Below are positions 46,155 to 62,758 of a stretch of DNA of 64,000 bases, in pieces. Under the pieces are notes generated by a model. It made no database searches. It was given only the letters and a program-made list of their open reading frames with translations, and was not told where the DNA came from. The stretch lies in assembly GCF_004614235.1 (NCBI RefSeq), contig NZ_SPVH01000007.1:1-64000 (forward strand), given 5' to 3'. The position numbers and the translations under genes are program-made. The DNA is from Brevundimonas intermedia. Its GTDB lineage: Bacteria > Pseudomonadota > Alphaproteobacteria > Caulobacterales > Caulobacteraceae. The first letter of the stretch is position 1, and every line of letters starts with the position of its first letter.

Positions 46155-46157
46155 ACC

Positions 46158-47657
46158 ATGTCTCGCGTTCTGATTCTGAACCCCGCCGACGACGTCGCCA
46201 TCGCCCTGGATGACATCGCCGTCGGCGATACGCCCGGCGGACTGGACGCTCCATCGCGCGCCGACATCGCCACCGGGCACAAGATCGCCCGCCATGCGGT
46301 GGAGGAGGGCGGTCTGGTCCGCCGCTACGGCCAGGTCATTGGACGCGCCAAGGCGGCCATCGCCGCCGGGGATCACGTCCACGTCCATAACCTGGCCATG
46401 GCCGAGGACGGGCGCGAGGCCGAGGTTGGCGCCGATCTGCGTCCGCCCGCGCCGCTGTCGGGCGCGACGTTCAACGGCATCGTCCGCCCGGACGGTCGGA
46501 TCGGCACGCGGAACTACATCGGCGTCCTGACCAGCGTGAACTGTTCGGCGACCGTGGCGCGCCGCATCGCCGACGCCTTCCCGGACTCCAGCCTGCCCAA
46601 GGGCGTGGACGGCGTCGTCGCCTTTACACACCAGGGCGGCTGCGGCGGCTCGTCGCTTAGCAGCGACGTGACCCTGCTGCAGCGGACATTGGCGGGTTAC
46701 GCCAAGCATCCGAACTTTCATTCCATCCTGATCGTCGGCCTGGGCTGTGAAGCCAACCAAATCCCGGCCTGGCTCGCCAACGAAGGCCTTCAATCCGGCC
46801 CGCATCTGCGCGCCCTGACCATCCAGGAGGCCGGCGGCACCGCTCGCGCAATCGAGGCCGGGATCGAGGTCGTCCGCGATCTTGTGGCCGAGGCGGCCAA
46901 GGTCGAACGCCAGCCTGTTTCTGCATCCCACCTGACGGTCGGCCTGCAATGCGGCGGTTCGGACGGCTGGTCCGGCGTCACCGCCAATCCCGCTCTGGGT
47001 GCGGCGGTGGATCTGCTGGTCGCCCACGGTGGTTCGGCCATGCTGTCGGAAACGCCCGAGATCTGGGGCGCCGAACACCTGCTGCTGCGTCGTGCGGCGT
47101 CGCAGGACGTGGCGGACAAGCTGAACGCGCGTCTGGAGTGGTGGCGCGACTATGCCGACCGCCATCAGATGGAGCTGAACAACAATCCGTCGCCGGGAAA
47201 TCTGAAGGGCGGCCTGACCACCATCCTGGAAAAGTCGCTGGGCGCGGTGGCCAAGTCCGGTTCCACCCCGTTGAACGACGTGATCGGCTACGCCGAACCG
47301 CTGGAAGCCAAGGGGCTCAGCTTCATGGACAGCCCCGGCTACGATCCGTGCTCGGCCACGGGCCAGATCGCCTCGGGCGCCAATCTGATCGTCTTCACCA
47401 CGGGCCGGGGGTCGGTCTTCGGCGCCAAGCCTGCGCCGTCGATCAAGGTCGCCTCCAACGCCAAACTGGCCAACTGGATGGACGAGGACATGGACATTGA
47501 CGCCTCGCCCGTCCTGACCGGGACCAGCCTGGCCGAGGTTGGGGTCGTCATCTTCCAGAAGATGCTCGACGTCGCCTCGGGCGAGCCGTCCAAGTCCGAA
47601 GCCCTCGGCGTCGGCGACAACGAGTTCGTGCCCTGGCAGGTGGGGGCCTATCTCTGA
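46158..47657 (+). CDS. uxaA: Altronate dehydratase
   Basis: This 499-residue protein has an N-terminal SAF domain (residues 1-95, with HKIARHAVEEGGLVRRYGQ). The large catalytic domain begins RPDGRIGTRNYIGVLTSVNC and contains FTHQGGCGG, GLGCEANQIP and MDSPGYDPCSATGQIASGAN; conserved cysteines suit iron binding. It dehydrates D-altronate to 2-keto-3-deoxygluconate. The KDG kinase and aldolase are outside the window. Confidence 0.94.
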   Translation: MSRVLILNPADDVAIALDDIAVGDTPGGLDAPSRADIATGHKIARHAVEEGGLVRRYGQVIGRAKAAIAAGDHVHVHNLAMAEDGREAEVGADLRPPAPLSGATFNGIVRPDGRIGTRNYIGVLTSVNCSATVARRIADAFPDSSLPKGVDGVVAFTHQGGCGGSSLSSDVTLLQRTLAGYAKHPNFHSILIVGLGCEANQIPAWLANEGLQSGPHLRALTIQEAGGTARAIEAGIEVVRDLVAEAAKVERQPVSASHLTVGLQCGGSDGWSGVTANPALGAAVDLLVAHGGSAMLSETPEIWGAEHLLLRRAASQDVADKLNARLEWWRDYADRHQMELNNNPSPGNLKGGLTTILEKSLGAVAKSGSTPLNDVIGYAEPLEAKGLSFMDSPGYDPCSATGQIASGANLIVFTTGRGSVFGAKPAPSIKVASNAKLANWMDEDMDIDASPVLTGTSLAEVGVVIFQKMLDVASGEPSKSEALGVGDNEFVPWQVGAYL

Positions 47658-47758: not shown

Positions 47759-49147
47759 ATGCATCGTCGCTCCCTGCTGCAACTCGGCCTGACCGGCGCG
47801 CTCGCTTCAGCCGCGCCTGCCTTCGCTCAATCGGTCGGTCGCACCTTCGACGCCGCCGACTATGGCGCGGTCGGCGATGGCGTGACGATCAACACCCGCC
47901 CGGTCCAGGCCGCCATCGACGCGGCAGCGGGGCAGGGCGGGGGCGTGGTGGTGCTGAAGCCCGGCCTGTATCTGTCCGGCTCCCTGTTCGTGAAATCGGG
48001 CGTGACCCTGTCGATCGGCCGAGGCGCGACCCTGCGCGGGGTTCAGAACTTAGACGCCTATCCGATTGTCCGCACCCGCGTCGCCGGGGTGGAGATGGAC
48101 TGGCCCGCCGGCCTGCTGAACATCTATCAGCAGCAGAACGCCAGGATCACCGGCGAGGGCCTGGTCGATGGCGACGGCAAGGTCTTCTGGGACAGCTATT
48201 GGGCCATGCGTCGCGACTATGACCCGCGCGACCTGCGCTGGGCCGCCGATTACGACTGCCGTCGCCCGCGATTGATCCACGTCTATGATTCCCAACAGGT
48301 CGAGGTCTCAGGCCTGAACCTGGCGCGGTCGGGTTTCTGGACGGTCCACATTTGCTATTCGCACGACGTTAAGGTCGCCGATCTGATCATCCGCAACAAC
48401 CTGGGCGGCCGAGGCCCCTCGACTGACGGGATCGACATCGACTCGTCGGAACGGGTGCTGGTCGAGCGGTGCGACCTGTCGGTCAACGACGACGCCATCT
48501 GCATCAAGGCCGGCCGCGACTGGGATGGGCTGCGTGTCGCCCGCCCGTGCCGCCAGGTGAAGATCCGCGACTGTATCGTCCGCGACGCCCTGGCGGGCAT
48601 GACGTTCGGGTCGGAAACCTCGGGCGGCTTCGACGACATCGAGGTGTCGGGCCTGCGGATCGAATATCCGGTGCCGCTGGGCATCTTCTTCAAGTCGGGT
48701 CACACGCGTGGCGGCGTCATTTCCAACATCCATCTGCGCGACATCCATCTGCAGGACGTGCGAACGCTGATGCAGGTCAATCTGAACTGGTATCCGAACT
48801 ACAGCTACGCCCAGATCCCGGCGGGTATCACCGACATCCCCGACTATTGGCGCGCCCTGGCCACGCCGGTCCCGCGCGAGCAGGGCATCCCCCGCATCCA
48901 CGATGTCCGCCTGTCGAACATCAAGGCCGTCGGCGGCAAGGTCGGCTTTGCCGCCGCCGCCTATCCCGAGGCGCCGCTGAAGGATTTCACCTTCGAACGG
49001 CTGGACTGGGACGTGCAGGACGCGGGCGCCATCGCCAACGCCGAGAACTGGCGCTTCCGCGACTGCAAGATCGACACCCTGGACGGCAAGGGCCCCAAGG
49101 TGACCGACTCGACGGGCGTCACCGGCCTGCGCCCACGGGGCGCCTGA
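47759..49147 (+). CDS. GH28 polygalacturonase/rhamnogalacturonase-type hydrolase
   Basis: This 462-residue beta-helix protein has a Tat-like signal (HRRSLLQLG, cleavage near AFAQS). The N-terminal RTFDAADYGAVGDGVTINTR is typical of GH28. Catalytic acids are in PSTDGIDIDSS and NDDAICIKAG. The usual GHG loop is replaced by TFGSETSGGFDD, seen in exo-acting and rhamnogalacturonan-active members. It would cut pectin oligomers in the periplasm. A terminator follows. Confidence 0.88.
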   Translation: MHRRSLLQLGLTGALASAAPAFAQSVGRTFDAADYGAVGDGVTINTRPVQAAIDAAAGQGGGVVVLKPGLYLSGSLFVKSGVTLSIGRGATLRGVQNLDAYPIVRTRVAGVEMDWPAGLLNIYQQQNARITGEGLVDGDGKVFWDSYWAMRRDYDPRDLRWAADYDCRRPRLIHVYDSQQVEVSGLNLARSGFWTVHICYSHDVKVADLIIRNNLGGRGPSTDGIDIDSSERVLVERCDLSVNDDAICIKAGRDWDGLRVARPCRQVKIRDCIVRDALAGMTFGSETSGGFDDIEVSGLRIEYPVPLGIFFKSGHTRGGVISNIHLRDIHLQDVRTLMQVNLNWYPNYSYAQIPAGITDIPDYWRALATPVPREQGIPRIHDVRLSNIKAVGGKVGFAAAAYPEAPLKDFTFERLDWDVQDAGAIANAENWRFRDCKIDTLDGKGPKVTDSTGVTGLRPRGA

Positions 49148-49246: not shown

Positions 49247-52003
49247 TCAGTACTTCCAGCGCAATCCCACGGCGATCTCACGGCCGGTGTGACGGTAGTC
49301 GGACACGCGGTCCGTCACATCGACGTAGCGATCGGTATAAGCGTCAGTCAGGTTGATGCCTTCGAGCGAGAAGGTCAGGTTCGGCGTGAACTCGTACGAC
49401 ATGGAGGCGTCGATATTGGTGGTGTCGTTGACGCCCTCTTCCGAGTTGCCGTTCGAGCCGGGGAAGGACAGCAGATACTGGCTGCGGTGCGCGACTGAGA
49501 CGCGGGCCTGGAAGGGGCCGTCCTCGTAATACAGGGTCGCGTTGGCGGTGTTCTTCGACTGGCCCGTCAGACGGTTCTTGCCGGCCGTGCCGTAGCTGAC
49601 CTCGGAATCGACCCAGGTGACGTTGCCGGTGAAGCCGAAGTTGGACCACAGGCCGGGCAGGAAGGTGAAGGGCTGCTGGTACTGGATCTCGATCCCCTTC
49701 AGCGCCCCGCCTGCGCCGTTCAGGCGACGTGTGACCTGGAAGATGTCGGTCGGGGAGGCCGCGCCTTGCAGCAGTTCGTTCGGCAGGCCCAACTGGTTGT
49801 AGGGAATGCCCACCGTCTCGGACGTGATGAAGCTGTCGATGTCCTTGTAGAAAAGAGCGCCGGCCAGCAGGCCTTCGTTCTGGAAATACCACTCGACGGA
49901 GAAGTCGTAGTTTGTGGCGCGGAACGGGTCGAGCAGGGGGTTGCCGTAGGAGACGGTTCGCGTCGTCGGAGACACGCTGCCCCCGGGCGTCAGGTCGCCC
50001 AATGTCGGACGCGACATCACCTTGGCGGCGCCCAGGCGGATGACCAGGTCCTCACGCGGTTCCAGCGCCAGGTTGAAGGACGGAAGCACGTCTTCGTAGT
50101 CGTTCTCGGTCGTGACGTAGTCGTAGGTGGTGACCGGAGGCGTGCCCGTGGCGATCGTTTGCCAACCCTTGGCCGTGACCTCGGTCTGGGCGTAGCGGAT
50201 GCCGGCGTTGCCGCGCAGGACCATGCCGGCGACGGTCGTGTTGAAGTCCGCCTGCAGGAAGATGCCCTTGTCCGTCTCGTCCACTTCCCGCTCGCTGCGG
50301 TTGGCGACCAAGGGGTCGTCGTAGAAGCTGAGGAAGTCGGCGATCTTCGAGATGTCGGGAACGATGAACGACAGGTCGGAGCCCGCGCCCGCGTCCACGC
50401 CGCCCGAGATGTCGACGACGCGGCCGATGCTGTCCACGCCCGTCAGCCGGTCCGCGCCGGTCGGGTTGGTCTTTGTGCGCGTCAGGCCGAAGGTCTCGAA
50501 CCCATAGGTTCGGTATTCGCCGCCTACCTTGAAGGTCAGCGAGTCGGACCAGTCGTAGGCCAGCGAACCGGCGCCGACCTGATTGTCGAAGTTGCCGCCG
50601 GAGGTGCTGCGCGTGGCGTTGACCAGGGTGAAACGCTGGCCTGAAGTGACGTCGAAGCCGTAGTTGATCGTCGGCTTGCGATCATCCTCTCGGAAGTCGA
50701 AGCTGTAGCCGTTCACGCCAGCGGCCTCGAAGGCATAGGCGACGTTCATCGGCGTTCGCGCTTCCGAACGGTTGGCCCCGATCTTCAGATTGCCGCGCAG
50801 GCGGTCCGTGAAGTCGTGGCGCACGTTCAGCGACGCCTGGTAGAAGTTGCTTTCGTTGCGCGTGAAGCCGTTCTCGGCTCGCACCAGCATATTGTCGAAG
50901 ACGCCGTACGACAGGATGTTCTTGTCGGCGTCGATCTCGTAGTCGCGCACGACGACGCTGTTCACAGCGGCGCGGCTGAACGACCAGGCCTCGATGTTGG
51001 GACTTTCCAATTCTGAGTTGGCCCGCGACCACAGCACGTCAAGCACCGCCTCGGTGCGATCGCTGGGCCGCCATTGCAGCGAGCCGGTCATGCCCAGGCG
51101 ATCTTCCTGAGTATTGCCGAGGGTGTAACGCGGAATGCGCGGATAGAAGGCGTTCAGGACCGCATCACGCTGTGCCGTCGTCGTGCAGGGAATGCAGTTG
51201 CCGAAGTTCTGACCACGTCCATAAGGCGAGCCGGTCACTGGATTGACGTCCAGCGGATTGCCCTTCTGCCAGCGTGTGGTGTTGAAGCTGCCCAGGATCG
51301 GAGAACGTTCGGAGTAGGCGACCGACAGCAGGGCGCCGAAGGTGCGGTCTTCGTTCGACCAACTAAGCAGGCCCGCCAGACGCGGGATCGTCTTCTCCGA
51401 CAGGTCGTTGTACGAGCCCTGCACCGACAGGGCGGAGTTGAAGCCGCTGCCGCTGAAGTCCAGCGGGCGGCCGGTCTGCAAATCCACGGTCGCGCCCAGC
51501 GAGCCTTCCTCGATCTCGGCCGACTGCGTCTTGCGGACCTTGATGCTGTTGAACAGCTCGGACGCGAACATCGAGAAGTCGAAGCTGCGGCTGCGGTTGC
51601 CGCCGGATGCGGCCTGGGCTTCCAGGCCGTTGATGCGCGTGCGGGTAAAGTCGGAGTTCAGCCCGCGAACCGAAATGGTCGTGCCCTGGCCGTTGACGCG
51701 TTCGATGGTCACGCCGGGCAGGCGTTGAATGGCCTCGGCAAGGTTCTGATCAGGGAAGTCTGCCATGTCTTCGGCGAAGATCGCGTCCACGGCGCCAGCT
51801 TCTTGGCGCTTGATGTTCAGCGCCTGTTGCAAGCTGGAGCGGAAGCCGGTGACGACGATTTCATCGACGACGGTCGCGTCCTGGGCGGCTTCTTCCGCCA
51901 CGGGTGCGGCCGGGGCGGTCTGGGCCAGCGCCGACGAAGCGCCCATCAGGGCCGCCAGGGATACGCCAACGGCGCACAGAGTCCGGGTGTTGGTCCGTCG
52001 CAT
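49247..52003 (-). CDS. TonB-dependent receptor for pectin oligomers (predicted)
   Basis: This 918-residue outer-membrane receptor has a signal peptide (MRRTNTRTLCAVGVSLAALM, cleaved near ALAQT). A TonB-box-like DEIVVTGFRSSLQQAL, the plug (ADFPDQNLAEAIQRLPGVTI), and a 22-strand-type barrel ending GLRWKY follow. ATG at 52003 has a strong GGGGAGAG site; starts farther up (52030) do not. The substrate is inferred from position between GH28 and PL22 genes. A LacI-type palindrome lies just upstream. Confidence 0.92.
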   Translation of the reverse strand: MRRTNTRTLCAVGVSLAALMGASSALAQTAPAAPVAEEAAQDATVVDEIVVTGFRSSLQQALNIKRQEAGAVDAIFAEDMADFPDQNLAEAIQRLPGVTIERVNGQGTTISVRGLNSDFTRTRINGLEAQAASGGNRSRSFDFSMFASELFNSIKVRKTQSAEIEEGSLGATVDLQTGRPLDFSGSGFNSALSVQGSYNDLSEKTIPRLAGLLSWSNEDRTFGALLSVAYSERSPILGSFNTTRWQKGNPLDVNPVTGSPYGRGQNFGNCIPCTTTAQRDAVLNAFYPRIPRYTLGNTQEDRLGMTGSLQWRPSDRTEAVLDVLWSRANSELESPNIEAWSFSRAAVNSVVVRDYEIDADKNILSYGVFDNMLVRAENGFTRNESNFYQASLNVRHDFTDRLRGNLKIGANRSEARTPMNVAYAFEAAGVNGYSFDFREDDRKPTINYGFDVTSGQRFTLVNATRSTSGGNFDNQVGAGSLAYDWSDSLTFKVGGEYRTYGFETFGLTRTKTNPTGADRLTGVDSIGRVVDISGGVDAGAGSDLSFIVPDISKIADFLSFYDDPLVANRSEREVDETDKGIFLQADFNTTVAGMVLRGNAGIRYAQTEVTAKGWQTIATGTPPVTTYDYVTTENDYEDVLPSFNLALEPREDLVIRLGAAKVMSRPTLGDLTPGGSVSPTTRTVSYGNPLLDPFRATNYDFSVEWYFQNEGLLAGALFYKDIDSFITSETVGIPYNQLGLPNELLQGAASPTDIFQVTRRLNGAGGALKGIEIQYQQPFTFLPGLWSNFGFTGNVTWVDSEVSYGTAGKNRLTGQSKNTANATLYYEDGPFQARVSVAHRSQYLLSFPGSNGNSEEGVNDTTNIDASMSYEFTPNLTFSLEGINLTDAYTDRYVDVTDRVSDYRHTGREIAVGLRWKY

Positions 52004-52031
52004 TCGTTCTCTCCCCATCCCGGTGGCCATC

Positions 52032-52211: not shown

Positions 52212-53666
52212 CTAGGCGCGGCGCTCGACTTCGACGGCATAGACGTGGTTGGCGCCGTGCATGTTCGACACGAAGACGATCCATTTGGCGTCCGGCGTGA
52301 AGGTCAGATTCGGCTCCAGCCGGTAGTCGTGGTTCGACAGGTCCACCAGCCGTTCCGAGCGCAGATATTCGACGAAGATCTGGTCATCCTTGTCGCTGGA
52401 CGGATCGGCGTCGACGATCGGTTCGGGGCGCAGCAGGACGAGCCATTTGCCGTCGGGCGCATGGGCGACCATGTCGCCGTCGCCGCCGTCGCCGGCGAAC
52501 AGGGTTCCGTCCGGCGAGACGTTGTAGTGGACGGACCAGTCGTTCTGCTCGACCCGGCGATAGACGCGACGGCCCGTCTCCAGATCGACCGAGGCGACCC
52601 AGAAGACCTGGCCGCGTGGGGTCTGCAGGTCATAGAGGACCTGCTTTCCGTCCGGGCTGAACCATTCGTGGCCGAAAATCTCGAAGTTCATCGTCCGCTG
52701 GTGGGTTTTCCTCAGGCCCGTGCCGTCGGCGCGGATGGCCCACATCCGGTCCACCCGGTGCCAGGGCCCTTCGTGGCAGAAGATGATCTGCTGCGGATCG
52801 GTGGGCGAGAACTGGGTGTGGCCGATCCATTCGTTGGTCTTGTGGATCACGCGCCGTTCGCCCGTCGCCAGGTCGATGACGAAAATCTCCATCGGATAGC
52901 GGGCGGCCCAGCGCTGGAGCATCCGCACGCCCTTGGCGCGGGCGAAGTTCAGCGGCTTCCCGTCGGGGCCGTTGGCTTCGTACTCGGCCTGGTCGAAGCG
53001 ACGGTTGCGGGGGTCGGGCACAGTGGGCTGAAGCGGCTGGCTGTCATAGGCGACGAAGCCCAGCAGCAGGGTCTCGTCGGCGTTGACCGAGTTGATCTGG
53101 CCGTTCGGTATCCGGCCGATTTCGCGACGTTGTTTGGTGTCGGCGTCGATGACGAACAGGGTCTTGGCGCGGTCCATCAACTGGCCTTCGCCAGGCGCGG
53201 TGACGGAATAATAGACGTTGCGGCCCTTGCGGCCGGTGAACATCAGGTCGGCGTCGTGATCGGGGACCAGGACGCTGACGGCCCAGGTCGCCAGATCAAC
53301 GGTCGAGATGCCTTGGGGCGTGGAAATGACCATCAGGTCGGGCGCGCCGGCCTTGGGCGGCAGGAACATGTTCTTGTAGAAATAGGGCTTTCCGCCGCCG
53401 CCATCGGGCGAGACGCGGCGTATGCGGTGGCCGGTCTTGGGATCTACCCACTCGGTCGGGACCGGGCCGTCCCAGCGCGGCCGCTCGACCGGCGTCTCTT
53501 GGGTGGACGGCGGGGCGGTGTTGGGCGCGGGCCAGACGGGGGTCTGGCCCGGCGCAGGTGGGGCGGCGGGCGCGGTCTGCTGCGCCTGAACGGTCGTCGT
53601 GGCGAAGGCGCCGACGGCGGGGGCCGCGAACAGGGCCTTCAGGGCGGTGCGTCTGGAGGTCGTCAT
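52212..53666 (-). CDS. ogl: Oligogalacturonate lyase, PL22 type
   Basis: This 484-residue exported protein has a Tat signal (TSRRTALKALFAAPAVGAF). The seven-bladed beta-propeller has the PL22 markers IGHTQFSPTDPQQIIFCHEG, GPWHRVDRMW and IFGHEWFSPDGKQV, where His and Gln bind manganese. It would split di- and oligogalacturonates into 5-keto-4-deoxyuronate. Many PL22 enzymes are cytoplasmic; the Tat signal puts this one in the periplasm. It is the last gene of the rhamnose operon. KduI and KduD are not in the window. Confidence 0.88.
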   Translation of the reverse strand: MTTSRRTALKALFAAPAVGAFATTTVQAQQTAPAAPPAPGQTPVWPAPNTAPPSTQETPVERPRWDGPVPTEWVDPKTGHRIRRVSPDGGGGKPYFYKNMFLPPKAGAPDLMVISTPQGISTVDLATWAVSVLVPDHDADLMFTGRKGRNVYYSVTAPGEGQLMDRAKTLFVIDADTKQRREIGRIPNGQINSVNADETLLLGFVAYDSQPLQPTVPDPRNRRFDQAEYEANGPDGKPLNFARAKGVRMLQRWAARYPMEIFVIDLATGERRVIHKTNEWIGHTQFSPTDPQQIIFCHEGPWHRVDRMWAIRADGTGLRKTHQRTMNFEIFGHEWFSPDGKQVLYDLQTPRGQVFWVASVDLETGRRVYRRVEQNDWSVHYNVSPDGTLFAGDGGDGDMVAHAPDGKWLVLLRPEPIVDADPSSDKDDQIFVEYLRSERLVDLSNHDYRLEPNLTFTPDAKWIVFVSNMHGANHVYAVEVERRA

Positions 53667-53694
53667 TGGGGGCGTTCCTCTCGGTTCTTGTGGA

Positions 53695-55977
53695 TTACGG
53701 CGCGGGGGTCAGGCCTTCGACCCGAACGGTCCAGCCGTTCTTGGGAAAGCCTGGGGCGTGGCCGCTCGATCCGTCCCAGCCTGCCGCCATCAGGCCGACG
53801 GCCATCAGCAGCGAGCCATTGGACGGGAAATAGGTCTCGGCGGCGCGGCGATAGCCGGGACCGTCGGGATTGACCGCCATCTCGACCCCGCCGGCGCCGG
53901 CCGAAACAGGGACCAGCTCGTCGGCGTGCTCGTCTAGGTGAACGCGCGGGGTCATGCCGGTGACGCCCCACTGATTGTTCTTCAGGTCGGCGAACAGCCA
54001 GTTCACGGCCTTTTCCGGTTCGCCGATGCGGGCCGCCGTCATGGCCATCATCGGGAAGTCCCAGCCCCAGGTCTGACGCACGTCCCAGGTCTGCTCGACC
54101 GCCTCGAATGTGCGGCGCATGGCTGCCGGGTCGATCCGCGCGCCGGGTATGAAGCCATAGGCCATCAGGAAGGAGGGATGGTCGCGGTTCTTGCACTGGG
54201 CCGCCGCCGCGTGCTTGCGACAGGCGTCGGACATGGCTGTTTCCCAGAAGTCCGGCAGGTTCTCGATCGGCAGATACAGGCCGTCCTTCATCGGCGGCGG
54301 TGCGATCCTGGCCAGGGCCTGATCCCAGTCGGCGCGGCGGGCCTGTCCCTTGCGTTCACGCCAGGCTTGCGCGGTTTCCAGCGCCCAGCGGAAATACTCG
54401 ACCTCGAAGGTCGGGTTCACGGTGGTCAGGGGATCGTAGTTCTCCTGCGCCGGGATCATCGGCGTGCCCAGGTTCAGCCGGCCTTCGTGTTCGATGGGCC
54501 AGGAGGCCAACAGGTCGGCGGTCGCCTCGACCAGCTCGCCATACCGATCCAGCACGGCCGGGTCCTTCTCGGCGCGCCAGACCAGTTCGGCCAGGAGGAT
54601 CGGGTGCGGCTGCTGCCACATGATGAAGGGCGAGACCAGGCTGGGGCTGTTGCGGCCCTCGGGTCCGACCATCTTGGGCCACCACGCGCCCTTGACGTGG
54701 TGACGGGCGGCCTCGGCGCGGGCGTTGTCCAGATTGCCGACATACCAGGGCAGGCTGCGCTCCAGCATGTCGGGATGGCCCCACATGGCCTGCCAGCCGG
54801 CGTGCCAAGGGTGCATTTCAAGGTGGAACTTGCCGTACCAGCTGTTGGAGAACAGGCCCTCTTCCTGGGGCGGCAGTTCGCCGGCGCCGTTCACGGCCGA
54901 CAGGTATTGGGACAGGACCACGCGACGTTCCAGCTCGGCCGCGCGCGGGTCGGTAGAGCCCGTGAAATCGACGGCGCCGCCTTGGGTCCAGAAGCCGTTC
55001 CAGTGGGCGGTCGTCGCCTGAACACCGGCGCTATAGGCGGGGGTCGCGGGCGCCTGGGCCTGTTGGTCGAAACGGACCATGACGGTCAGCCGGTCGCGAC
55101 CGGAGGAGACGACGCGGAAGGTGTCGGCGCCGCTCTGTTCGATCTTACCCGAGGCGGTGATGCTGGAATAATAGGTGGTGTCGTCCAGAGTGCGGCGAAT
55201 GTGGACGTCGCCCGTGTCGGAGGCGACGATGCTCAGGCTTTGCGCGTCAGAGGCCTCGAACGTCGTCGGGTCGGGATTGATGGCGGGGTTCACGCCGGGA
55301 TAGCGGACCTGGACGCCCAGACCATTGGCTGCAACGAGAGGCGAGGCGATCTCGACCATGACCATGTCCAGCGTCGGGTGGACGCGGGTCACGACCTCGA
55401 CCGGCTGGCCGTCATAGGTGAAGCGGCTGGTCAGGGCGCCGGACCACAGGTCCAGCGTCTGGCGCGTGTCGGCGACCTTGGCGAAGTCCAGCGGCTTGCC
55501 GTCGGCGAAGGTCAGGCCGATGCGGCTGAGCGAGAACCGATGCGGATTGGCCCGCAGCCAGGTGTAGGCGGGCTGGGTCTCGGCCACCGCCCAGGACTTC
55601 ATCCAGGCATAGGGCTGTTCGCCCCGACCCGGCACGGGCACGTCGATCAGGCCGTCCTGTTCGGTATAGCCGTTCGGATTCGGGAAGCTGTGCCAGGCCC
55701 ACTGGGCCATGGTCAGCAGGGGGGCCAGTTCCGAATACTGCTCGGGGAAGGTCTGAAGCCCCGTGATGTCGGCGGTGAAGCCCAGGTCGCCGTTGCCCAG
55801 CATGATCGGGGCATGGCGGTCGATCGCGGTCAGGCTGACGTTGTGACGCGTGACCAGGGCGTGACGGTCTATCGGCGCGGCGGGCGCGACGGCGGCGGTA
55901 GGCGTCACCGTCTGGGCGCAGGCGGCTGTGGGGCCGGCCAGCAGGGTGAAGGCGAGGAGGGCGGTGCGAAGACGCAT
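53695..55977 (-). CDS. Exported (alpha/alpha)6-type putative glycoside hydrolase, family unclear
   Basis: This 760-residue protein has a signal peptide (RTALLAFTLLAGPTAACAQ). An N-terminal beta-rich part follows (about residues 35-330; HAPIMLGNGDLGFTADITGL, then YSELAPLLTMAQWAWHSFPN). The C-terminal helical barrel (about 340-720) has FHLEMHPWHAGWQAMWGHP and VRQTWGWDFPMMAMTAARIG. This layout resembles GH65/GH95-like six-hairpin hydrolases, but I cannot assign a family. The operon around it handles rhamnose and galacturonate, so an exo-rhamnosidase or related pectin activity is a fair guess. Its start overlaps the permease stop (TGATG). Confidence 0.7.
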   Translation of the reverse strand: MRLRTALLAFTLLAGPTAACAQTVTPTAAVAPAAPIDRHALVTRHNVSLTAIDRHAPIMLGNGDLGFTADITGLQTFPEQYSELAPLLTMAQWAWHSFPNPNGYTEQDGLIDVPVPGRGEQPYAWMKSWAVAETQPAYTWLRANPHRFSLSRIGLTFADGKPLDFAKVADTRQTLDLWSGALTSRFTYDGQPVEVVTRVHPTLDMVMVEIASPLVAANGLGVQVRYPGVNPAINPDPTTFEASDAQSLSIVASDTGDVHIRRTLDDTTYYSSITASGKIEQSGADTFRVVSSGRDRLTVMVRFDQQAQAPATPAYSAGVQATTAHWNGFWTQGGAVDFTGSTDPRAAELERRVVLSQYLSAVNGAGELPPQEEGLFSNSWYGKFHLEMHPWHAGWQAMWGHPDMLERSLPWYVGNLDNARAEAARHHVKGAWWPKMVGPEGRNSPSLVSPFIMWQQPHPILLAELVWRAEKDPAVLDRYGELVEATADLLASWPIEHEGRLNLGTPMIPAQENYDPLTTVNPTFEVEYFRWALETAQAWRERKGQARRADWDQALARIAPPPMKDGLYLPIENLPDFWETAMSDACRKHAAAAQCKNRDHPSFLMAYGFIPGARIDPAAMRRTFEAVEQTWDVRQTWGWDFPMMAMTAARIGEPEKAVNWLFADLKNNQWGVTGMTPRVHLDEHADELVPVSAGAGGVEMAVNPDGPGYRRAAETYFPSNGSLLMAVGLMAAGWDGSSGHAPGFPKNGWTVRVEGLTPAP

Positions 55978-57242
55978 CAGGCGGCATCCTTCTTCAGGCC
56001 AAGGCCGGCGCCCTTCCAGCCGTACCAGGCGACGACGGCGAAGCAGACGGCGGGCAGCAGGAAGGCGACATTGGCGCCGTAGAGGTCCGCGATCTTGCCC
56101 ATGGGCCAGGGCAGCAGCACGCCGCCGCCGATGGCCATGACCATCAGGGACGAGGCCTTCTTGGTGCCGGCGCCCAGGCCGGTGGTGCCCAAGGCGAAGA
56201 TGGTGGCGAACATGGTGGACATGAAGAAGAAGACGGCCAGCAGGGCGATGGGCGAAACCTTGTCGATGCCCGCCGCCACGATCAGGGTCAGGACCACATT
56301 GATCACGCCATAGGTGGTCAGCAGGACGCGCGGCCTGATCTTCAGCAGCAGCGCGGTGGCGAAGAAGCGGCCGACCAGATAGCCGATGGCCGCCAGCGAC
56401 AGCATGAAGGCGCCTTGCTGAGACGTCAGACCCTGCCAGTTGTGGGTCACCAGATTGATGAAATAGGCGCCGATGCCAACCTGGGCGCCGATATAGAGGG
56501 CCTGGGTGATCACGCCGGCGATGAAGTGCGGCTGCTTCGACAGGGGCAGGGCGGGGGCGTCGCCCTCCACTGCGTTACCGTGGTCCGACAGGCCGGTTTC
56601 CGGCAGGCGGGCGCGCCAGACGGCGAGGGCGAACAGGACGACGCCGACGGCGATCAGGCCATAGACGATCTGGATCGAGCGGGTCGCGCCGCCCAGGGCT
56701 TCGGTCGTGGTGGGGCTGAAGAAGACGGCGCCGCCGATCAGCGGGCCGAAGAAGACGCCCAGGGCATTGAACGACTGGGCCAGGTTCAGCCGCTGCGAGG
56801 CCTTGGCCGGATCGCCCAGCACGTTGACGTAGGTGTCAGCGCTGGTCTCCAGAATGCACAGGCCCGCGGCGAGCACGAACATCGAGCCGACGAAGGGCAG
56901 GAAGGCGTCCGCGCCCGCCGCCGGGATGAACAACAGGGCGCCGATGGCGGTGACCGCCAGGCCCGACACGATGCCGAACTTGTAGCCCCGCGCGTGCAGC
57001 AGCATTCCCGCCGGGATCGACAGCAGCAGATAGGCCCCGAAATAGGCGATCTGCAGCCAGGCGCTGTCGGCCTGGCTGATGCTCAGCGTTTCCTGGAAAT
57101 GCTTGTTCAGCACGTCCAGCAGACCGTAGGCCAGGCCCCAGATCAGAAAGCAGGCGATGGCGAAGGCCAGCGGGCCCTTCAGCGAACCGGCGGGTTTGGC
57201 GAGCCCTCCGGGGGTGTGGGCGGCGTCGGTCTCGATGACCAT
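55977..57242 (-). CDS. Sugar permease of the FucP (fucose:H+ symporter) MFS group
   Basis: This 421-residue protein has 12 membrane segments. FucP-type stretches are FAIACFLIWGLAYGLLDVLN near residue 30, with NKHFQETLSISQADSAWLQ, and LCILETSADTYVNVLGDP. In this operon L-rhamnose is the most likely substrate, since FucP relatives carry 6-deoxyhexoses. It is the only inner-membrane sugar carrier in the pectin region, so it might also take galacturonate. It lies 63 bp after the lactonase gene. Confidence 0.85.
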   Translation of the reverse strand: MVIETDAAHTPGGLAKPAGSLKGPLAFAIACFLIWGLAYGLLDVLNKHFQETLSISQADSAWLQIAYFGAYLLLSIPAGMLLHARGYKFGIVSGLAVTAIGALLFIPAAGADAFLPFVGSMFVLAAGLCILETSADTYVNVLGDPAKASQRLNLAQSFNALGVFFGPLIGGAVFFSPTTTEALGGATRSIQIVYGLIAVGVVLFALAVWRARLPETGLSDHGNAVEGDAPALPLSKQPHFIAGVITQALYIGAQVGIGAYFINLVTHNWQGLTSQQGAFMLSLAAIGYLVGRFFATALLLKIRPRVLLTTYGVINVVLTLIVAAGIDKVSPIALLAVFFFMSTMFATIFALGTTGLGAGTKKASSLMVMAIGGGVLLPWPMGKIADLYGANVAFLLPAVCFAVVAWYGWKGAGLGLKKDAA

Positions 57243-57305: not shown

Positions 57306-58208
57306 TCAGATGCGGTAGATCGCCTCGGCGTTGGCGGCGAACAGGCGGTCGCGTTCGTCGGCCGAAAAGTCGGCCGTGATCGCGTCGAAGGCGGAATAGA
57401 AGGCGTCAAAGGTCCCGTGAACGCTCTCGACGGGGAAGTCGGAGGCGAACATGGCGCGCTGGGTCCCGAAGGCGTCGATGCAGTCCAGCACGACAGGCCG
57501 GATGCTGTCGGGCGTCCAGGCGCGGTCGGTGATGCCAAGGCCGGAGATCTTGATCGAGACCTGGGGCTGGGCGGCCAGCAGGCGCAGGCCCGTGCGCCAC
57601 CGCTCAATACCGATGGCGTCGCGGTCGGTCGGCAGGCCAGCGTGGTTGACGATCATGGGGATGTCGGGATGGCGCGCGGCGATGATGGCGGCGGTCGCCA
57701 TCTGCGACGGATAGAGCTGAAGGTCGAACGACAGGCCGTGGCGCGCCAGCCTGGCGAACCCCTCGACCCACTGCGGATCGCGCAACAGGTCGCGGTCGGT
57801 ATAGGTCTTCAGCGGATCCTCGTGCCAGCAGACGATCTGGCGGATCCCGCGCACGTTCGGCCGGGCGGCGTGGGCCTCCAGCAGGGCGTCGAGGTCGGGA
57901 TCGAGCAGGTCGGCGCCGGCGACGATGGCGTGCGGATAGCCGTACTCATCCGCCAGCGACTGGAGCCAATCGGTTTCGGCCAGTTGCCGGCCGATGGGCT
58001 GGCCGGCCTCGACATGGACGATCTTATCCACGCGCCAGCCGGCCGTGTCGGCGAGGTAGTCCTTCAGCAGATAGTTCCTGTGCGCGATGGGCGACATGTC
58101 CCCCGCCGGATTGTTCGGCAGGGGATCGTCCTGAAGCCAGCCATAGCGCGCCCGCGACAGGTCCCACAGGTGGACGTGGCCGTCGACGATGCGAAGATCA
58201 GACGCCAC
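57306..58208 (-). CDS. Amidohydrolase-family sugar lactonase (predicted L-rhamnono-lactonase)
   Basis: This 300-residue TIM-barrel protein has metal ligand HVH in IVDGHVHLWDLSRARYGWLQ. Later motifs are MIVNHAGLP and MFASDFPVESVHG. This is the COG3618 amidohydrolase group known for L-fucono- and L-rhamnono-lactonases. It would open L-rhamnono-1,4-lactone to L-rhamnonate. GTG at 58208 is chosen; farther upstream the frame overlaps the next gene without family sequence. It is 10 bp from the SDR gene. Confidence 0.82.
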   Translation of the reverse strand: MASDLRIVDGHVHLWDLSRARYGWLQDDPLPNNPAGDMSPIAHRNYLLKDYLADTAGWRVDKIVHVEAGQPIGRQLAETDWLQSLADEYGYPHAIVAGADLLDPDLDALLEAHAARPNVRGIRQIVCWHEDPLKTYTDRDLLRDPQWVEGFARLARHGLSFDLQLYPSQMATAAIIAARHPDIPMIVNHAGLPTDRDAIGIERWRTGLRLLAAQPQVSIKISGLGITDRAWTPDSIRPVVLDCIDAFGTQRAMFASDFPVESVHGTFDAFYSAFDAITADFSADERDRLFAANAEAIYRI

Positions 58209-58218: not shown

Positions 58219-58968
58219 CTAATAGGTCGTTCTGCCGCCCGACGTATCGAACGTCGAGGCGGTGGTAAAGCTGCATTCTTCCGAGGCCATGAAACAGACC
58301 ATGGCGGCGCTCTCGTCGACCTCACCCAAGCGACCCATCGGGATCTTGGAGCGCATGTAGTCGACCTGGCTTTGCGGCATCTGGGCCAGGATCGGGCTTT
58401 CGAAGGTGGCGGGGGTCAGGGCGTTGGCGATGACGCCCTTGCCGGCCAGTTCCTTGCCCAACGACTTGGTGAAACCGATTACGCCCGCCTTGGACGCCGA
58501 ATAGGCGCTGGCGTTCGGATTGCCTTCCTTGCCGGCGACCGAGGCCACATTGACGATCCGGCCGTAGCCGTTGGCCAGCATGAAGGGCACGACGGCGCGC
58601 GAGCAGTAGAAGACGCCGTTCAGATTGATGTCGACGACCCGCTTCCAGCTGTCGATCGGGAACTCGTGGACCGGCACGGTGGCCCCGGTGATGCCGGCCG
58701 AGGCGACCAGGATGTCGATGTGGCCCAAGGCCTTGTTCGAGTCCTCGGCCGCCGCAGCGACGGCGTCGGCGTCGGATACGTCCAGGGCCACGACGTGGGT
58801 CGCGCCAACTTCCTCGGCCGCCGCTTTCAGCGCGTCGGCGTTCAGGTCCCACAGCACGACCTTGCCGCCCTCGGCGACGATCCGGGCGGCCGAGGCCTTG
58901 CCCAGGCCCGAGGCGCCGCCGGTGACGACGGCGGTGCGGCCCGAAAAACGGCCTTGATAGGCGCTCAT
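58219..58968 (-). CDS. SDR dehydrogenase (predicted 2-keto-3-deoxy-L-rhamnonate 4-dehydrogenase)
   Basis: This 249-residue short-chain dehydrogenase has the cofactor motif TGGASGLG at residues 16-23 and catalytic YSASKAG. NPNASAYSASK and TPATFESPILAQMP are typical of the sugar-acid subgroup. In the oxidative rhamnose pathway this step oxidises 2-keto-3-deoxy-L-rhamnonate to the 2,4-diketo acid. Assignment rests on operon context. ATG overlaps the preceding gene stop (ATGA at 58965-58968). Confidence 0.85.
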   Translation of the reverse strand: MSAYQGRFSGRTAVVTGGASGLGKASAARIVAEGGKVVLWDLNADALKAAAEEVGATHVVALDVSDADAVAAAAEDSNKALGHIDILVASAGITGATVPVHEFPIDSWKRVVDINLNGVFYCSRAVVPFMLANGYGRIVNVASVAGKEGNPNASAYSASKAGVIGFTKSLGKELAGKGVIANALTPATFESPILAQMPQSQVDYMRSKIPMGRLGEVDESAAMVCFMASEECSFTTASTFDTSGGRTTY

Positions 58969-59813
58969 CGCGTCCACTCCACGAAGGTCTGGCCTTGCTC
59001 GCCCAGCTTCTGGATGCCCAGGCGAACCGTGTCGCCGGCCTTCAGATAGAGCGGCGGCTTCTGGCCCAGGCCCACGCCCGGAGGGGTGCCCGTGGTGATC
59101 AGATCGCCGGGCTCCAGCGTCATGAACTCCGACAGATAGGAGACGATCTCGGCGACGCCAAAGATCATGGTCTTCGTATTGCCGGTCTGCATGCGCCTGC
59201 CGTTCAGGTCCAGCCACATGTCCAGGTCCTGGACGTCGCCCACCTCGTCGGTGGTGACGAGCCAGGGGCCGACCGGGCCGAAGGTGTCGCAACCCTTGCC
59301 CTTGTCCCAGGTGCCGCCGCGCTCGGTCTGGAAGGCGCGCTCGGACACGTCGTTGATCAGCACATAGCCGGCGACGTGATCCAGCGCCTCGTCCTGGGTG
59401 ACATAGGTTGCGGGCTTGCCGATCACGATACCGAGTTCGACTTCCCAGTCTGTCTTTTCCGAACCGCGCGGAATGATGACGTCGTCGTTCGGCCCGTTCA
59501 GGCAGGTGATGGCCTTGGTGAAGACCACCGGCTCGCCCGGAATAGGCAGGTTGGATTCTGCGGCGTGGTCGGCGAAGTTCAGGCCGATGGCGATGAACTT
59601 GCGGCTGCCGTTCACCGGAACGCCATAGCGGGGCTGGCCCTCGACCAGGGGCAGGGTGGTCGGGTCGATGGCCTTCAGCGCTTCGAGCGCCGCGCCATGC
59701 AGTTGATCCGGCGTGATGTCGGCGACGACGCCCGACAGGTCGCGGATCCGCCCCTCGGCGTCCAGCGTGCCCGGCTTCTCCTGGCCCTTGGGGCCATAAC
59801 GCAGCAGTTTCAT
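58965..59813 (-). CDS. FAH-family hydrolase (predicted 2,4-diketo-3-deoxy-L-rhamnonate hydrolase)
   Basis: This 282-residue protein of the fumarylacetoacetate hydrolase fold has metal ligands in DWEVELGIVIG and catalytic region FIAIGLNFADHAAESNLP. MIFGVAEIVSYLS and GDLITTGTPPGVGLG follow. It would hydrolyse 2,4-diketo-3-deoxy-L-rhamnonate to pyruvate and L-lactate. It sits between rhmD and the SDR gene. Confidence 0.88.
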   Translation of the reverse strand: MKLLRYGPKGQEKPGTLDAEGRIRDLSGVVADITPDQLHGAALEALKAIDPTTLPLVEGQPRYGVPVNGSRKFIAIGLNFADHAAESNLPIPGEPVVFTKAITCLNGPNDDVIIPRGSEKTDWEVELGIVIGKPATYVTQDEALDHVAGYVLINDVSERAFQTERGGTWDKGKGCDTFGPVGPWLVTTDEVGDVQDLDMWLDLNGRRMQTGNTKTMIFGVAEIVSYLSEFMTLEPGDLITTGTPPGVGLGQKPPLYLKAGDTVRLGIQKLGEQGQTFVEWTR

Positions 59814-59831: not shown

Positions 59832-61025
59832 TTAGCGCGCGTAGGGGCGGTGCAGGGCGATGTCGCGGTTCAGCTCGACGCCGAAACCAGGCGCATCCGG
59901 CACCTTGAGCTTGCCGTTCACCGGAACCGGTTCACCGATCAGCTGCGGATGGAACATGGGCACGACCTCGTCGGCGCCGGGGGCCATCATCAGGAACTCC
60001 GCGAACGGGCTGTTATGGCGCGTCACCACGAAGTGGTAGGAATAGACGGACGATCCGTGCGGGATCATCAGCACGCCCTTGGCGTCGGCCATGGCGGAAA
60101 TCTTGATCAGTTCGGTCACGCCGCCGCACCAGCCCACGTCCGGCTGGATGATGTCGCAGCATTCCATTTCCAGCAGCATGCGGAAGCCCCAGCGGGTGGC
60201 CTCATGCTCGCCGGTGGTGACCAGCATGCCCTTGGGCGCATTCTTCTTCAGCGCCTGATAGCCCCAGTAGTCGTCAGGGCTCAGCGCCTCCTCGATCCAC
60301 TTCAGACCCAGCTTGTGGGCTTCGTGGGCCAGGCGGGTGGCGTAGTTCAGATCCAGCGCCATCCAGCAGTCGAACATCAGCCAGAAGTCGTCGCCGCAGG
60401 CGTTCCTCATGGCCTCCAGCTCGGCCAGGTTCTTACGCAGGCCTTCTTCACCTTCGGCGGGGCCGTGGTGCAGGGGCATCTTGCCGCCGATGAAGCCCAG
60501 TTCCTTGGCTTTGTCGGGTCGCGCGCCGGTGGCGTAGAAGGTCAGCTCGTCGCGGACAGGGCCGCCCAGCATGGCGAAGACCGGTTCCTGGCGCAGACGA
60601 CCGAGCAGATCCCACAGCGCCAGATCGACGCCGGAGATGGCGTTCACCACCAAGCCCTTGCGGCCATAGTACTGGGTGGAGAAATACATCTGGTCCCAGA
60701 TCTTCTCGACCTCGGACGGATCGCGCCCTTCCAGAAAGCGGGCCAGGTGTTTTTCGACGATATAGGCGGCGGGTTCGCCGCCGGTCGTGACGGCAAAGCC
60801 GACGACGCCGTTCTCGGCCTCGATCTCGACCACCAAGGTGCCCAGCACATTGATGCCGAAGCTGCGGCGGCTCTGGCGATACTCGGGATATTTCGCCATG
60901 GGCGTGGCGATATGGTCGTCGATCCAGTGGCCATCGCCCTGGTCATGATAGTCGGCGCCGCCGCCTGAACCGTCGTTCTTCACGACGAAGGCGCGGACGT
61001 GTTTGATCTTCGGCAGGCGGCTCAT
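59832..61025 (-). CDS. rhmD: L-rhamnonate dehydratase
   Basis: This 397-residue enolase-superfamily enzyme has the RhmD-specific N terminus [18 protein letters not shown] with H33. Metal ligands are D219 (MFDCW), E245 (IEEALSPDD) and E273 ([11 protein letters not shown]). D296 and H323 ([10 protein letters not shown]) form the acid/base pair. It dehydrates L-rhamnonate to 2-keto-3-deoxy-L-rhamnonate. It heads the minus-strand operon, with an IclR-type palindrome ending 5 bp before its start codon. Confidence 0.94.
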
Positions 61026-61052: not shown

Positions 61053-61165
61053 GCTCCCATCATGCGGGATTTCACTGGCTTTCCTCCGTGCGCCGCGTCA
61101 AACTCAACCCAGTTCCCCGGACAAGCTTGCGTGTTTTGCTACATTCTGAGAATGAGGATTACGAA

Positions 61166-61972
61166 ATGGGACGAGTGGCGTCAATCAAGACCGCACAGGT
61201 CGATGGGGAAGAAGAAGTCGGCGCCAAGGCGTCCGGCAGTCAGACCCTGCTGCGCGGCCTGGACGTGATCGACGCCCTGATGGAGGGCTCGCTGCCTCTG
61301 GCCGAGCTGTCCGAGAAGCTGGACCTGACCCGCAGCACGACCCACCGGCTGGCCTCGGCCCTGGTAGATCGTCGCCTGCTGTCGTTCCGCCCGCGCGAGG
61401 GTTACAGCCTGGGGCCGAAACTGCTGGAACTGGGCCATGCCGCCAGCCAGCAGATGCATCTGCCGCGCGTCGCCCGGCCCTGGCTGGAACAGCTGTCGGC
61501 CCAGACCGACGACACGGTTCACCTGGGCGTCCTCGATGGCCGCCACGCGCTCTATCTGGACAAGGTCGCCGGTCGTCGCCGCATCAACATCGGCTCTCGC
61601 CTGGGCGAACGGCATCCCATCGCCTCGACCGGTCTGGGCAAGGCTTTGATTCTCGACAAGTCCGAGCCTGAGTGGATCGACTTCTATGCGCCCGAAGGCG
61701 CGCCCTATGATTCGTCGGCCCGGGCCGTCTGGCTGGAGCGGATGCATGGCTACGCCCAGAAGGGCTACGCCTTCGACCTGGAAGAAAACGAGGACCAGAT
61801 TCGCTGCGTCGCCGCCCCGATCCGTTCGGTGGACGGCCATATCGTCGCCGCGCTCAGCGTCTCCTCGGCCGCCCAATACATGTCCGACGCCCGGATGACG
61901 GAACTGACCAAGACCGTCACCGACGCCGCCAACGCCATCAGCGCCGACCTCGGTTGGCTGCCGAAACCCTGA
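61166..61972 (+). CDS. IclR-family regulator of the rhamnose genes
   Basis: This 268-residue protein has a winged helix (LAELSEKLDLTRSTTHRLAS, residues about 35-95). The IclR effector domain follows (VHLGVLDGRHALYLDKVAG, GSRLGERHPIASTGLGKALI). It probably senses rhamnose, its lactone or a keto-acid product. ATG at 61166 has GAGG upstream; earlier in-frame starts overlap the operator region. It is transcribed away from rhmD and leads into the L-rhamnose dehydrogenase gene. Confidence 0.9.
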   Translation: MGRVASIKTAQVDGEEEVGAKASGSQTLLRGLDVIDALMEGSLPLAELSEKLDLTRSTTHRLASALVDRRLLSFRPREGYSLGPKLLELGHAASQQMHLPRVARPWLEQLSAQTDDTVHLGVLDGRHALYLDKVAGRRRINIGSRLGERHPIASTGLGKALILDKSEPEWIDFYAPEGAPYDSSARAVWLERMHGYAQKGYAFDLEENEDQIRCVAAPIRSVDGHIVAALSVSSAAQYMSDARMTELTKTVTDAANAISADLGWLPKP

Positions 61973-61996: not shown

Positions 61997-62758
61997 ATGC
62001 TGCTTGAGAACAAGGTCGTCCTGATCACGGGCGCATCGCGGGGTATCGGACGGGCGACGGCGATCGAGGCCGCACGCCAGGGCGCGAACGTCGCCATCAA
62101 CACCTACAAGGATGAGGCGGTCGCCGCCGAGGTGGTCGCCGAGATCGAGGCCTTGGGCCGCAAGGCCATCGTGGTCGACGCCGATGTGGCCCAGCCGGAC
62201 AGCGCCACGGCCTTCGTGAATGCGGCGGTCGAGGCGTTCGGGCGGGTGGACGTCTTCGTCTCCAACGCCGGCATCTGCCCCTTCCACGCCTTCCTCGACA
62301 TGCCGGTCGAGACCCTGCGCCGCACGATGGAGGTCAATCTCCACGGGGCCTATTTCATGACCCAGGCGGCGGCGAACCAGATGGTGCAGCAAGGGGAGGG
62401 TGGATCGATCGTCGCCATCAGCTCGATCTCGGCCCTGGTCGGCGGCGAGATGCAGACCCACTACACCCCGACCAAGGCGGGGGTGCACAGCCTGATGCAA
62501 TCCTGCGCCGTCGCCCTGGGTCGCCATGGCATTCGCTGCAACTCGGTCCTGCCCGGCACCATCGCCACCGACATCAACAAGGACGATCTCGCCGACCCGG
62601 CCAAGCGCGAATATATGGAAGGCCGCATTCCGTTGGGGCGTCTGGGCAGGCCCGAGGACATCGCCTCGGTCGTCGCCTTCCTGGCCTCGGACATGGCCGG
62701 CTATATGTCGGGCGCAGCCTTGCTGGTCGATGGCGGCGCCTTCGCCAACTTCCAGTAG
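61997..62758 (+). CDS. L-rhamnose 1-dehydrogenase (SDR)
   Basis: This 253-residue SDR has TGASRGIGRA at the N terminus and catalytic YTPTKAG. It shares NAGICPFHAFLDMP, SSISALVGGEMQTHYTPTKA and LPGTIATDINKDDL with the known L-rhamnose 1-dehydrogenases of Azotobacter and Sphingomonas, as far as I recall those sequences. It oxidises L-rhamnose to L-rhamnono-lactone, the first step of the pathway. It begins 24 bp after the IclR gene. Confidence 0.9.
   Translation: MLLENKVVLITGASRGIGRATAIEAARQGANVAINTYKDEAVAAEVVAEIEALGRKAIVVDADVAQPDSATAFVNAAVEAFGRVDVFVSNAGICPFHAFLDMPVETLRRTMEVNLHGAYFMTQAAANQMVQQGEGGSIVAISSISALVGGEMQTHYTPTKAGVHSLMQSCAVALGRHGIRCNSVLPGTIATDINKDDLADPAKREYMEGRIPLGRLGRPEDIASVVAFLASDMAGYMSGAALLVDGGAFANFQ

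Follow-up and report, generated by a model that had tools for sequence, protein, structure and literature searches.

What does a conserved, exported-looking enzyme do in an operon for L-rhamnose breakdown when no family library has a name for it? The question arises from a window of 64,000 nucleotides (the whole stretch of DNA analyzed: positions 1 to 64,000 of contig NZ_SPVH01000007.1, assembly GCF_004614235.1) of Brevundimonas intermedia, in which a 760-residue (alpha/alpha)6 glycosidase-like protein, here called GHX, is encoded among genes for rhamnose and galacturonate use. Pectin ranks among the main polymers of plants, and to our knowledge exo-enzymes for the backbone of rhamnogalacturonan I (RG-I) are few: GH78, GH106, GH28, and GH105. 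A first-pass annotation, made from the letters and translations, had suggested an exo-acting rhamnosidase or related hydrolase of a new family. With a probability of roughly 0.85, we take GHX to represent a new family of exo-alpha-glycosidases of the inverting type that serve the breakdown of pectic oligosaccharides. The earlier assignment to an unnamed family of (alpha/alpha)6 enzymes of the GH65/GH95 superfamily held, and the substrate was not established; alpha-L-rhamnosidase activity on RG-I is our best single guess, and a tentative one. If correct, such a family, present in several bacterial phyla, would close a gap in the annotation of pectin degradation and would give the GH65/GH95 superfamily a further variant of the catalytic site.

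GHX is a conserved gene of an unnamed family

Comparison of the GHX DNA with four relatives (97 to 80% identity) revealed purifying selection, with synonymous rates (dS) of 0.25-0.63 and nonsynonymous rates (dN) of 0.013-0.135; for the relatives at loci L001 and L010, the values were dS 0.25, dN 0.013 and dS 0.63, dN 0.135, respectively. The closest named relative is a Brevundimonas protein, 97% identical, and 189 of the 193 pattern-matching stretches of other genomes encode a GHX relative. Since the synonymous rate far exceeds the nonsynonymous one and nearly all of these stretches code for a relative, GHX is a real gene; the coordinates in the first-pass annotation (53695-55977) were exact, and the gene lies on the minus strand. 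The N terminus, read by eye from the sequence, shows an Arg-containing start, a hydrophobic stretch, and an ACA-Q end. This signal-like start and the gene neighborhood agree with the earlier description of an exported-looking enzyme in a rhamnose and galacturonate locus, and GHX is probably exported to the periplasm.

In Pfam, GHX reached no family above cut-off: the sole match at E up to 10 was the GH95 catalytic domain PF22124 (16.9 bits versus a cut-off of 27), with none at that limit to PF03632 (GH65 catalytic domain, cut-off 27 bits), PF17389 (GH78), or PF17132 (GH106). No NCBIfam family was found, and a single-sequence search of the PDB gave nothing at E up to 10. In an alignment of 36 chosen relatives, 29 members matched PF03632 at E up to 1 (best 4e-4); the four bit scores listed were 13.3-19.6, an E of 4.8e-4 corresponding to 19.6 bits against the cut-off of 27, and PF17389 was absent from the six families matched by the 36. 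The 36-member profile reached GH65 proteins weakly (7fe3 at 5e-5, 3wiq at 2e-4). With hhalign, it gave a probability of 97% against both a GH65 profile (5 proteins) and a GH95 profile (19 proteins) built from carrier genomes, in forced global alignments to one template each that are hence uncalibrated against a database. A strong match to a characterized family was sought and not found in Pfam, NCBIfam, and the PDB, and the GHX family carries no name in these libraries. A literature search of open-licence PMC papers returned no paper on it.

The predicted fold, a proposed general acid, and several base candidates

The AlphaFold model of GHX, built on the 36-row alignment, consists of a beta domain that leads into an (alpha/alpha)6 barrel, with a mean predicted local distance difference test score (pLDDT) of 91.5 and a predicted template modeling score of 0.91; residues 1-27 and 690-696 fall under a pLDDT of 50. 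Comparison of this predicted model with known structures (Foldseek and VIA-align, 50 rows) bore out the GH65/GH95-like architecture proposed earlier. The top match was FjGH65A, the GH65 alpha-1,2-glucosidase of Flavobacterium johnsoniae (7fe3; Z 33.9, 581 of 760 residues, root mean square deviation 2.9, 14% identity), followed by human PGGHG (Z 32.2), kojibiose phosphorylase, GH95 enzymes (7kmq, 4ufc, and 2eac; Z 22-25, 12-16% identity), and GH139 enzymes (Z 23-24), with the exo-alpha-1,2-(2-O-methyl)-fucosidase BT0984 (9hyq) at Z 24.2 and 16% identity. The rhamnosidases 4xhc, which we take to be a GH78 member, and 2okx also have the barrel and rank lower (Z 20.8 and 20.0), aligning over only 328 and 350 residues; GH106 was absent from the 50 rows, an absence that was not used as evidence. 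With GH78 and GH106, which it does not match in Pfam, GHX would have its activity in common only if it is a rhamnosidase.

PMC8626586 assigns FjGH65A the acid Glu472 and the base Glu616, with Trp343, Asp344, Lys538, and Gln539 at subsite -1 and Trp391, Glu392, Thr407, and Glu472 at subsite +1; we tied the PDB-chain numbering to that of the paper via the WD and WE pairs. Like FjGH65A and PGGHG, GHX has the fold over most of its chain, and Glu512 lies between helices 473-492 and 523-542, on the alpha5-alpha6 loop, as Glu472 does in FjGH65A. Glu512 falls exactly at the acid position against 3wiq, one residue off against PGGHG and GH95, and right after the last residue aligned to 7fe3 in the profile alignment. 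It is identical in all 83 sequences aligned (the window plus those tblastn pieces that covered 400 or more query residues), as are Glu372, Lys383, Glu387, Lys435, Asp599, His600, and Asp640; one actinobacterial member, aligned separately from the 83, has Glu in place of Asp599. From these alignments, it is fairly clear that Glu512 would be the general acid.

GHX, at 13-14% identity to FjGH65A and PGGHG, scores below the GH65 Pfam cut-off and aligns differently at several catalytic-site positions. An acidic residue is kept at the Asp344 position (Glu387), whereas Leu386 aligns with Trp343 and Lys435/Met436 with Trp391/Glu392 (profile alignment), and the base Glu616 has no recognizable counterpart. 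The GH65 KQAD element, which presumably holds Lys538/Gln539, aligns to a gap; a mapping of Asp599-His600 onto these two residues was rejected for this reason. In residues 700-721, where a weak alignment would place Glu616, no acid is found in all 83 sequences: Asp705 is present in 70 with a gap in 13, and position 714 (Glu in GHX) is acidic in 75. Glu372 immediately precedes the residue that aligns with FjGH65A Met330, the Lys position of GH65 phosphorylases. GHX and GH95 have W-x-x-K, M-x-x-W, H-x-S, and GW elements in common; unlike in GH95, the ININ element, which we assume to hold the base Asn, aligns to a gap, residues 380-392 of GHX contain no Asn, and QIDGN has no clear counterpart, with YFPSNG nearby. 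PMC12282258 proposes an Asn base for GH95 and GH139 and describes BT0984 as an inverting enzyme from a pectin (RG-II) context with Asn412, together with Asp723, as the proposed base. Conservation points to Glu372, Glu387, and Asp640 as base candidates in GHX, and in most members also to Asp705 and Glu714. Lys435 was considered as a galacturonate-binding residue and dropped, as it is equally invariant in the Streptomyces, Paenarthrobacter, and Nonomuraea members.

GHX occurs together with rhamnose and galacturonate enzymes

Co-occurrence was counted in one sample of 149 genomes of the window's own family, the Caulobacteraceae, from genome lists typed by hand from family searches. GHX was found in 19 genomes, L-rhamnonate dehydratase in 44, GH106 in 20, GH78 in 28, and the galacturonate isomerase UxaC in 77. 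All 19 GHX carriers had L-rhamnonate dehydratase, compared with 25 of the 130 non-carriers (Fisher 3e-12), and all 19 had UxaC, compared with 58 of the 130 (Fisher 1e-6); among the 77 UxaC genomes, the dehydratase was again found in 19 of 19 carriers versus 23 of 58 non-carriers (Fisher 1e-6). The dehydratase match of one carrier falls into two overlapping pieces, as if frameshifted (genome G094, contig C1 2881753-2882947). The window genome has no GH106 match at E 0.001 and no GH78 above cut-off; its single sub-cut-off GH78 match (L081) is a GDE_N_bis/MGH1-like, glycogen-debranching-like protein. Four of the 19 carriers, the window genome included, are without GH78 and GH106.

A scan of genome contigs gave the 189 relatives, of which 79 loci (3.3 to 22.3 kb) were kept; genes in them were assigned with identity thresholds that we set, from 28% (GH28) to 55% (LRA3). 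The gene caller used was a crude one that misses genes. The loci come from Alpha-, Beta-, and Gammaproteobacteria, Halothermothrix, a Bryobacterales genome (Acidobacteriota), and a planctomycete, where we take phylum and class names in part from genus names. Nine plasmid records with a GHX relative add Actinomycetota; seven name the relative a hypothetical protein, and two have no annotation at that place. Pectin or galacturonate genes were found in 58 of the 79 loci, an LRA3 or LRA6 relative within the fetched stretch in 21, and one or the other kind in 61; PL22 was present in 36, GH105-DUF4861 in 28, PL10 in 27, GH28 in 25, DUF4450 in 18, and an AbnA-like GH43 in 15. In Asticcacaulis excentricus, for example, kduI, oligogalacturonate lyase, GH88, a TonB receptor, GH28, and pelA lie on one side of GHX, and GalB, a TonB receptor, DUF4450, and GH92, with others interspersed, on the other. 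On a tree of the 83 sequences, made by a quick method that left 22 of 80 inner branches open, the rhamnose loci fall in several separate branches (seven changes of the label): a Hyphomonas/Parvularcula branch, Caulobacter L030, Sphingomonas L026 and L033/L035, and the Brevundimonas branch. Context labels were typed by hand, and L003 and L071, with one LRA-like match each, were not labeled rhamnose loci.

What GHX may cleave

Rhamnose is favored as the released sugar by the operon, its permease, and the absence of GH106 and of an above-cut-off GH78, while the adjoining GH28 and PL22 would cover galacturonate. On this reading, GHX would be secreted and would meet, in the periplasm, pectin fragments brought in by TonB-dependent import, and its barrel pocket would hold the non-reducing end of a short RG-I oligosaccharide. 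Hydrolysis would be an inverting reaction in which Glu512 protonates the glycosidic oxygen and water attacks from the opposite face. Its product would most likely be L-rhamnose from rhamnose-alpha-1,4-galacturonate (Rha-alpha-1,4-GalA), in alternation with the galacturonate-removing GH28 and PL22. The freed rhamnose would enter the cell through FucP and be converted by LRA1-2-3-5-6 to pyruvate and L-lactate, the latter then being oxidized by LldD.

Several observations weigh against an alpha-L-rhamnosidase. The enzymes closest in fold have alpha-glucosides and L-fucosides as substrates, with GH78 lower at Z about 20, and no base could be placed in GHX. The Caulobacteraceae genomes are akin, so that the Fisher values overstate independence. 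A known rhamnosidase family is already present in most carriers (of the 19, 9 have GH106, 12 have GH78, and 15 have at least one of the two), and GH78, GH106, and GHX are all missing from 12 of the 44 genomes that have L-rhamnonate dehydratase, so the absence of a known rhamnosidase proves little. The GHX neighbors are galactose and galacturonate genes in Halothermothrix, with none of the LRA genes, and GH97 and GH3 in Streptomyces and Paenarthrobacter. The weightiest objection to a function in rhamnose release alone comes from 50 carrier genomes traced from the loci: 34 have L-rhamnonate dehydratase above cut-off, one other has RhaA, and the remaining 15 have neither. These 15 are all seven Massilia/Pseudoduganella genomes of the set (one of them with a sub-cut-off relative), the L055 genome, Phenylobacterium deserti, Halothermothrix, a Bryobacterales genome, and four Steroidobacter-like or neighboring genomes (L036, L051, L062, L063); several are metagenome bins, perhaps incomplete. 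This search covered 50 of the 61 loci first listed, leaving out L014, L019, L020, L037, L039, L044, L048, L057, L067, L072, and L074; the list of 61 did not hold L001-L010, L013, L024, L025, L029, L050, L061, L071, and L075.

The alternative that survives best, which we still hold to be improbable, is a polyspecific family whose subfamilies cleave different alpha-linked caps (L-fucose, L-galactose, L-arabinopyranose, galactose), the Brevundimonas type being one of these and no rhamnosidase. Some genomes carry two GHX copies in different loci (L010/L025, L013/L029, L016/L071, and L045/L061), the contexts vary (GH43, Gfo/Idh/MocA, PL10/GH105/DUF4450, GH3, and GH97), and the fold-close GH95 and GH139 act on L-fucose/L-galactose and 2-O-methyl-fucose. 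However, the window copy sits in a rhamnose operon, and none of the ten neighbors scanned is a fucose-, galactose-, or arabinose-specific catabolic enzyme above NCBIfam cut-off. In three loci, two of them from Massilia, a second paralogue 41-44% identical to the window protein lies near the first (L052:12509-14662, L055:14576-16717, L065:6340-8463).

An exo-alpha-D-galacturonidase (or other alpha-uronidase), acting for instance on GalA-alpha-1,2-Rha with the same inverting chemistry, is unlikely, and a shade more so. It would suit a best fold match that is an alpha-1,2-glucosidase, the pectin or galacturonate genes of most loci, UxaC in every Caulobacteraceae carrier, the existence of carriers without rhamnose markers, the Halothermothrix cluster, with its UxaC and UxaB/UxaA-like genes, and two invariant lysines aligned with active-site loops. 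Yet the adjoining GH28 and PL22 already act on galacturonate, and UxaC is so common among non-carriers that, of the two, L-rhamnonate dehydratase is the more strongly linked to GHX. As to the lysines, Lys383 aligns with a Lys of the neutral-sugar GH95, and Lys435 is kept in the actinobacterial members, two of which (Streptomyces and Paenarthrobacter) lie outside pectin loci.

That GHX is no more than a GH65 or GH95 enzyme that has diverged in sequence and kept the customary alpha-glucosidase or alpha-L-fucosidase activity appears quite improbable: the sub-threshold GH65 matches and the profile alignments speak for it, but the best Pfam values stay below the cut-offs, FjGH65A Trp343 aligns with Leu386 and the Asn-containing element of GH95 with a gap, and a separate GH95 above cut-off is present in 18 of 19 carrier genomes tested. 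A phosphorylase, which PMC8626586 would make conceivable in describing GH65 as rich in phosphorylases, or a non-catalytic sugar-binding relative is very improbable, given that GHX looks exported, that Glu373 aligns with the phosphorylase Lys position and Tyr716 with the His of the GH65 GxH motif, and that Glu512 is invariant. That His is, we presume, the phosphate His of GH65 phosphorylases.

Returning to the alpha-L-rhamnosidase (or RG-I exo-glycosidase), part of the family may work with a partner. A Gfo/Idh/MocA oxidoreductase gene lies near GHX in 12 of 79 loci, adjoining it in 10 and separated from it by one gene in L033 and L056, and may act on the same sugar; such genes by GHX range from Sphingomonas to Halothermothrix, and two of the 12 lie at L018:8415-9884 and L077:8645-9934. 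The Sphingomonas L018 protein has a twin-arginine-like start and is nearest in the PDB to glucose-fructose oxidoreductase, and the Halothermothrix gene, 43% identical, lies directly upstream of GHX. We offer as speculation a new family of alpha-L-rhamnosidases, or of matched RG-I exo-glycosidases, with its acid on the alpha5-alpha6 loop and a base that is neither the GH65 alpha11-alpha12 residue nor the GH95 Asn, which in part of the family would be partnered on the same oligosaccharide with this oxidoreductase, in some Proteobacteria probably exported by the twin-arginine route. The Halothermothrix and Paenarthrobacter GHX proteins have no evident signal peptide in the sequence as called or annotated, and may therefore act inside the cell on imported oligosaccharides.

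The operon and other genes of the window

The first-pass annotation had described GHX as coupled to a FucP-type permease with neighbors acting on rhamnose and galacturonate, and both points are confirmed: the FucP-like stop and the GHX ATG overlap by one base (TGATG), and the neighbors include three rhamnose equivalogs, UxaC, a dehydratase, GH28, PL22, and a TonB receptor (Table 1). LRA3, LRA6, LRA5, LRA2, FucP, GHX, and PL22 lie head to tail, all in one orientation and spaced by -19 to 63 bases, distances that depend in part on the LRA2 start codon that we picked, so this run of genes likely forms a single operon. Lra1, L-rhamnonate dehydratase, and 2,4-didehydro-3-deoxy-L-rhamnonate hydrolase passed NCBIfam cut-offs; for the lactonase, second dehydrogenase, and permease, the probable roles come solely from family and operon. 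A fucose-pathway operon, suggested by FucP and the fucono-lactonase-like amidohydrolase, was rejected, as the three enzymes above equivalog cut-offs are rhamnose-specific. The best NCBIfam model of the GH28 gene is the rhamnogalacturonidase NF049899 (213 bits, below the cut-off of 650). A scan of 52000-62000 showed no sigma-70 promoter-like site, which carries little weight in a GC-rich alphaproteobacterium.

Table 1. Features of the GHX region, in window coordinates.
Feature	Coordinates	Strand	Basis or remark
Galacturonate genes: UxaC-type isomerase, mannitol-dehydrogenase-family reductase, altronate/galactarate-type dehydratase	43261..47657	plus	
GH28	47759..49147	plus	PF00295 above cut-off
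TonB-dependent receptor	49247..52030	minus	TIGR01782 above cut-off
PL22-like protein	52212..53666	minus	28 bases past GHX; PF14583 2e-23; PDB 3pe7 oligogalacturonate lyase 8.5e-24
GHX	53695..55977	minus	ATG 55977, stop 53695
Putative Sec signal peptide, about residues 1-22	55912..55977	minus	read from sequence
N-terminal beta domain, about residues 33-310	55048..55881	minus	model secondary structure; limits approximate
(alpha/alpha)6 barrel, about residues 315-735	53773..55035	minus	model; aligned with GH65, GH95, and glucoamylase chains; limits approximate
Glu372, candidate base or catalytic-loop residue	54862..54864	minus	invariant, 83/83
Lys383	54829..54831	minus	invariant; aligned with Lys of GH95
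Glu387	54817..54819	minus	83/83; aligned with FjGH65A Asp344 of subsite -1
Lys435	54673..54675	minus	invariant; aligned with FjGH65A Trp391 (+1 subsite)
Glu512, proposed general acid	54442..54444	minus	aligns with Glu of GP-DE motif of 3wiq
Asp640	54058..54060	minus	in invariant WGWD motif
FucP-like sugar:H+ symporter	55977..57242	minus	TIGR00885 233 bits, below cut-off 280; PDB 3o7q E 3e-53
LRA2, amidohydrolase, probable L-rhamnono-lactonase	57306..58202	minus	by operon; L-fucono-lactonase model below cut-off
LRA5, short-chain dehydrogenase/reductase, probable 2-keto-3-deoxy-L-rhamnonate dehydrogenase	58219..58983	minus	assigned by operon
LRA6, 2,4-didehydro-3-deoxy-L-rhamnonate hydrolase	58965..59813	minus	NF053535 504 bits, cut-off 500
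LRA3, L-rhamnonate dehydratase	59832..61025	minus	NF011968 752 bits, cut-off 393
IclR-type regulator	61100..61972	plus	
LRA1, L-rhamnose 1-dehydrogenase	61997..62758	plus	NF053807 462 bits, cut-off 400
LldD-like L-lactate dehydrogenase (presumed)	62768..63901	plus	name as we take it from the sequence

Some neighbors of GHX in other genomes stand apart. Large DUF4450 proteins are encoded near it at L041:13368-16925 (1185 aa) and L110:24567-27932; the DUF4450 protein had no PDB relative at E 0.01, and no paper on DUF4450 (with "pectin") or DUF4861 was found among open-licence PMC papers. Tryptophan-halogenase-family proteins, odd for a sugar locus, occur near GHX at L062:13200-14744 and L063:14067-15386. 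On a conjugative Paenarthrobacter plasmid (L108:13518-19437), a major facilitator superfamily transporter, a GHX relative, and GH3 stand in a row that resembles a plant-glycoside uptake unit. In the window itself, 37284-43254 holds long open reading frames on both strands, among which 37284-39431 (minus) and 40786-43254 (plus) had no Pfam match at E 1e-5, and a tRNA-Thr lies at 40704-40779.

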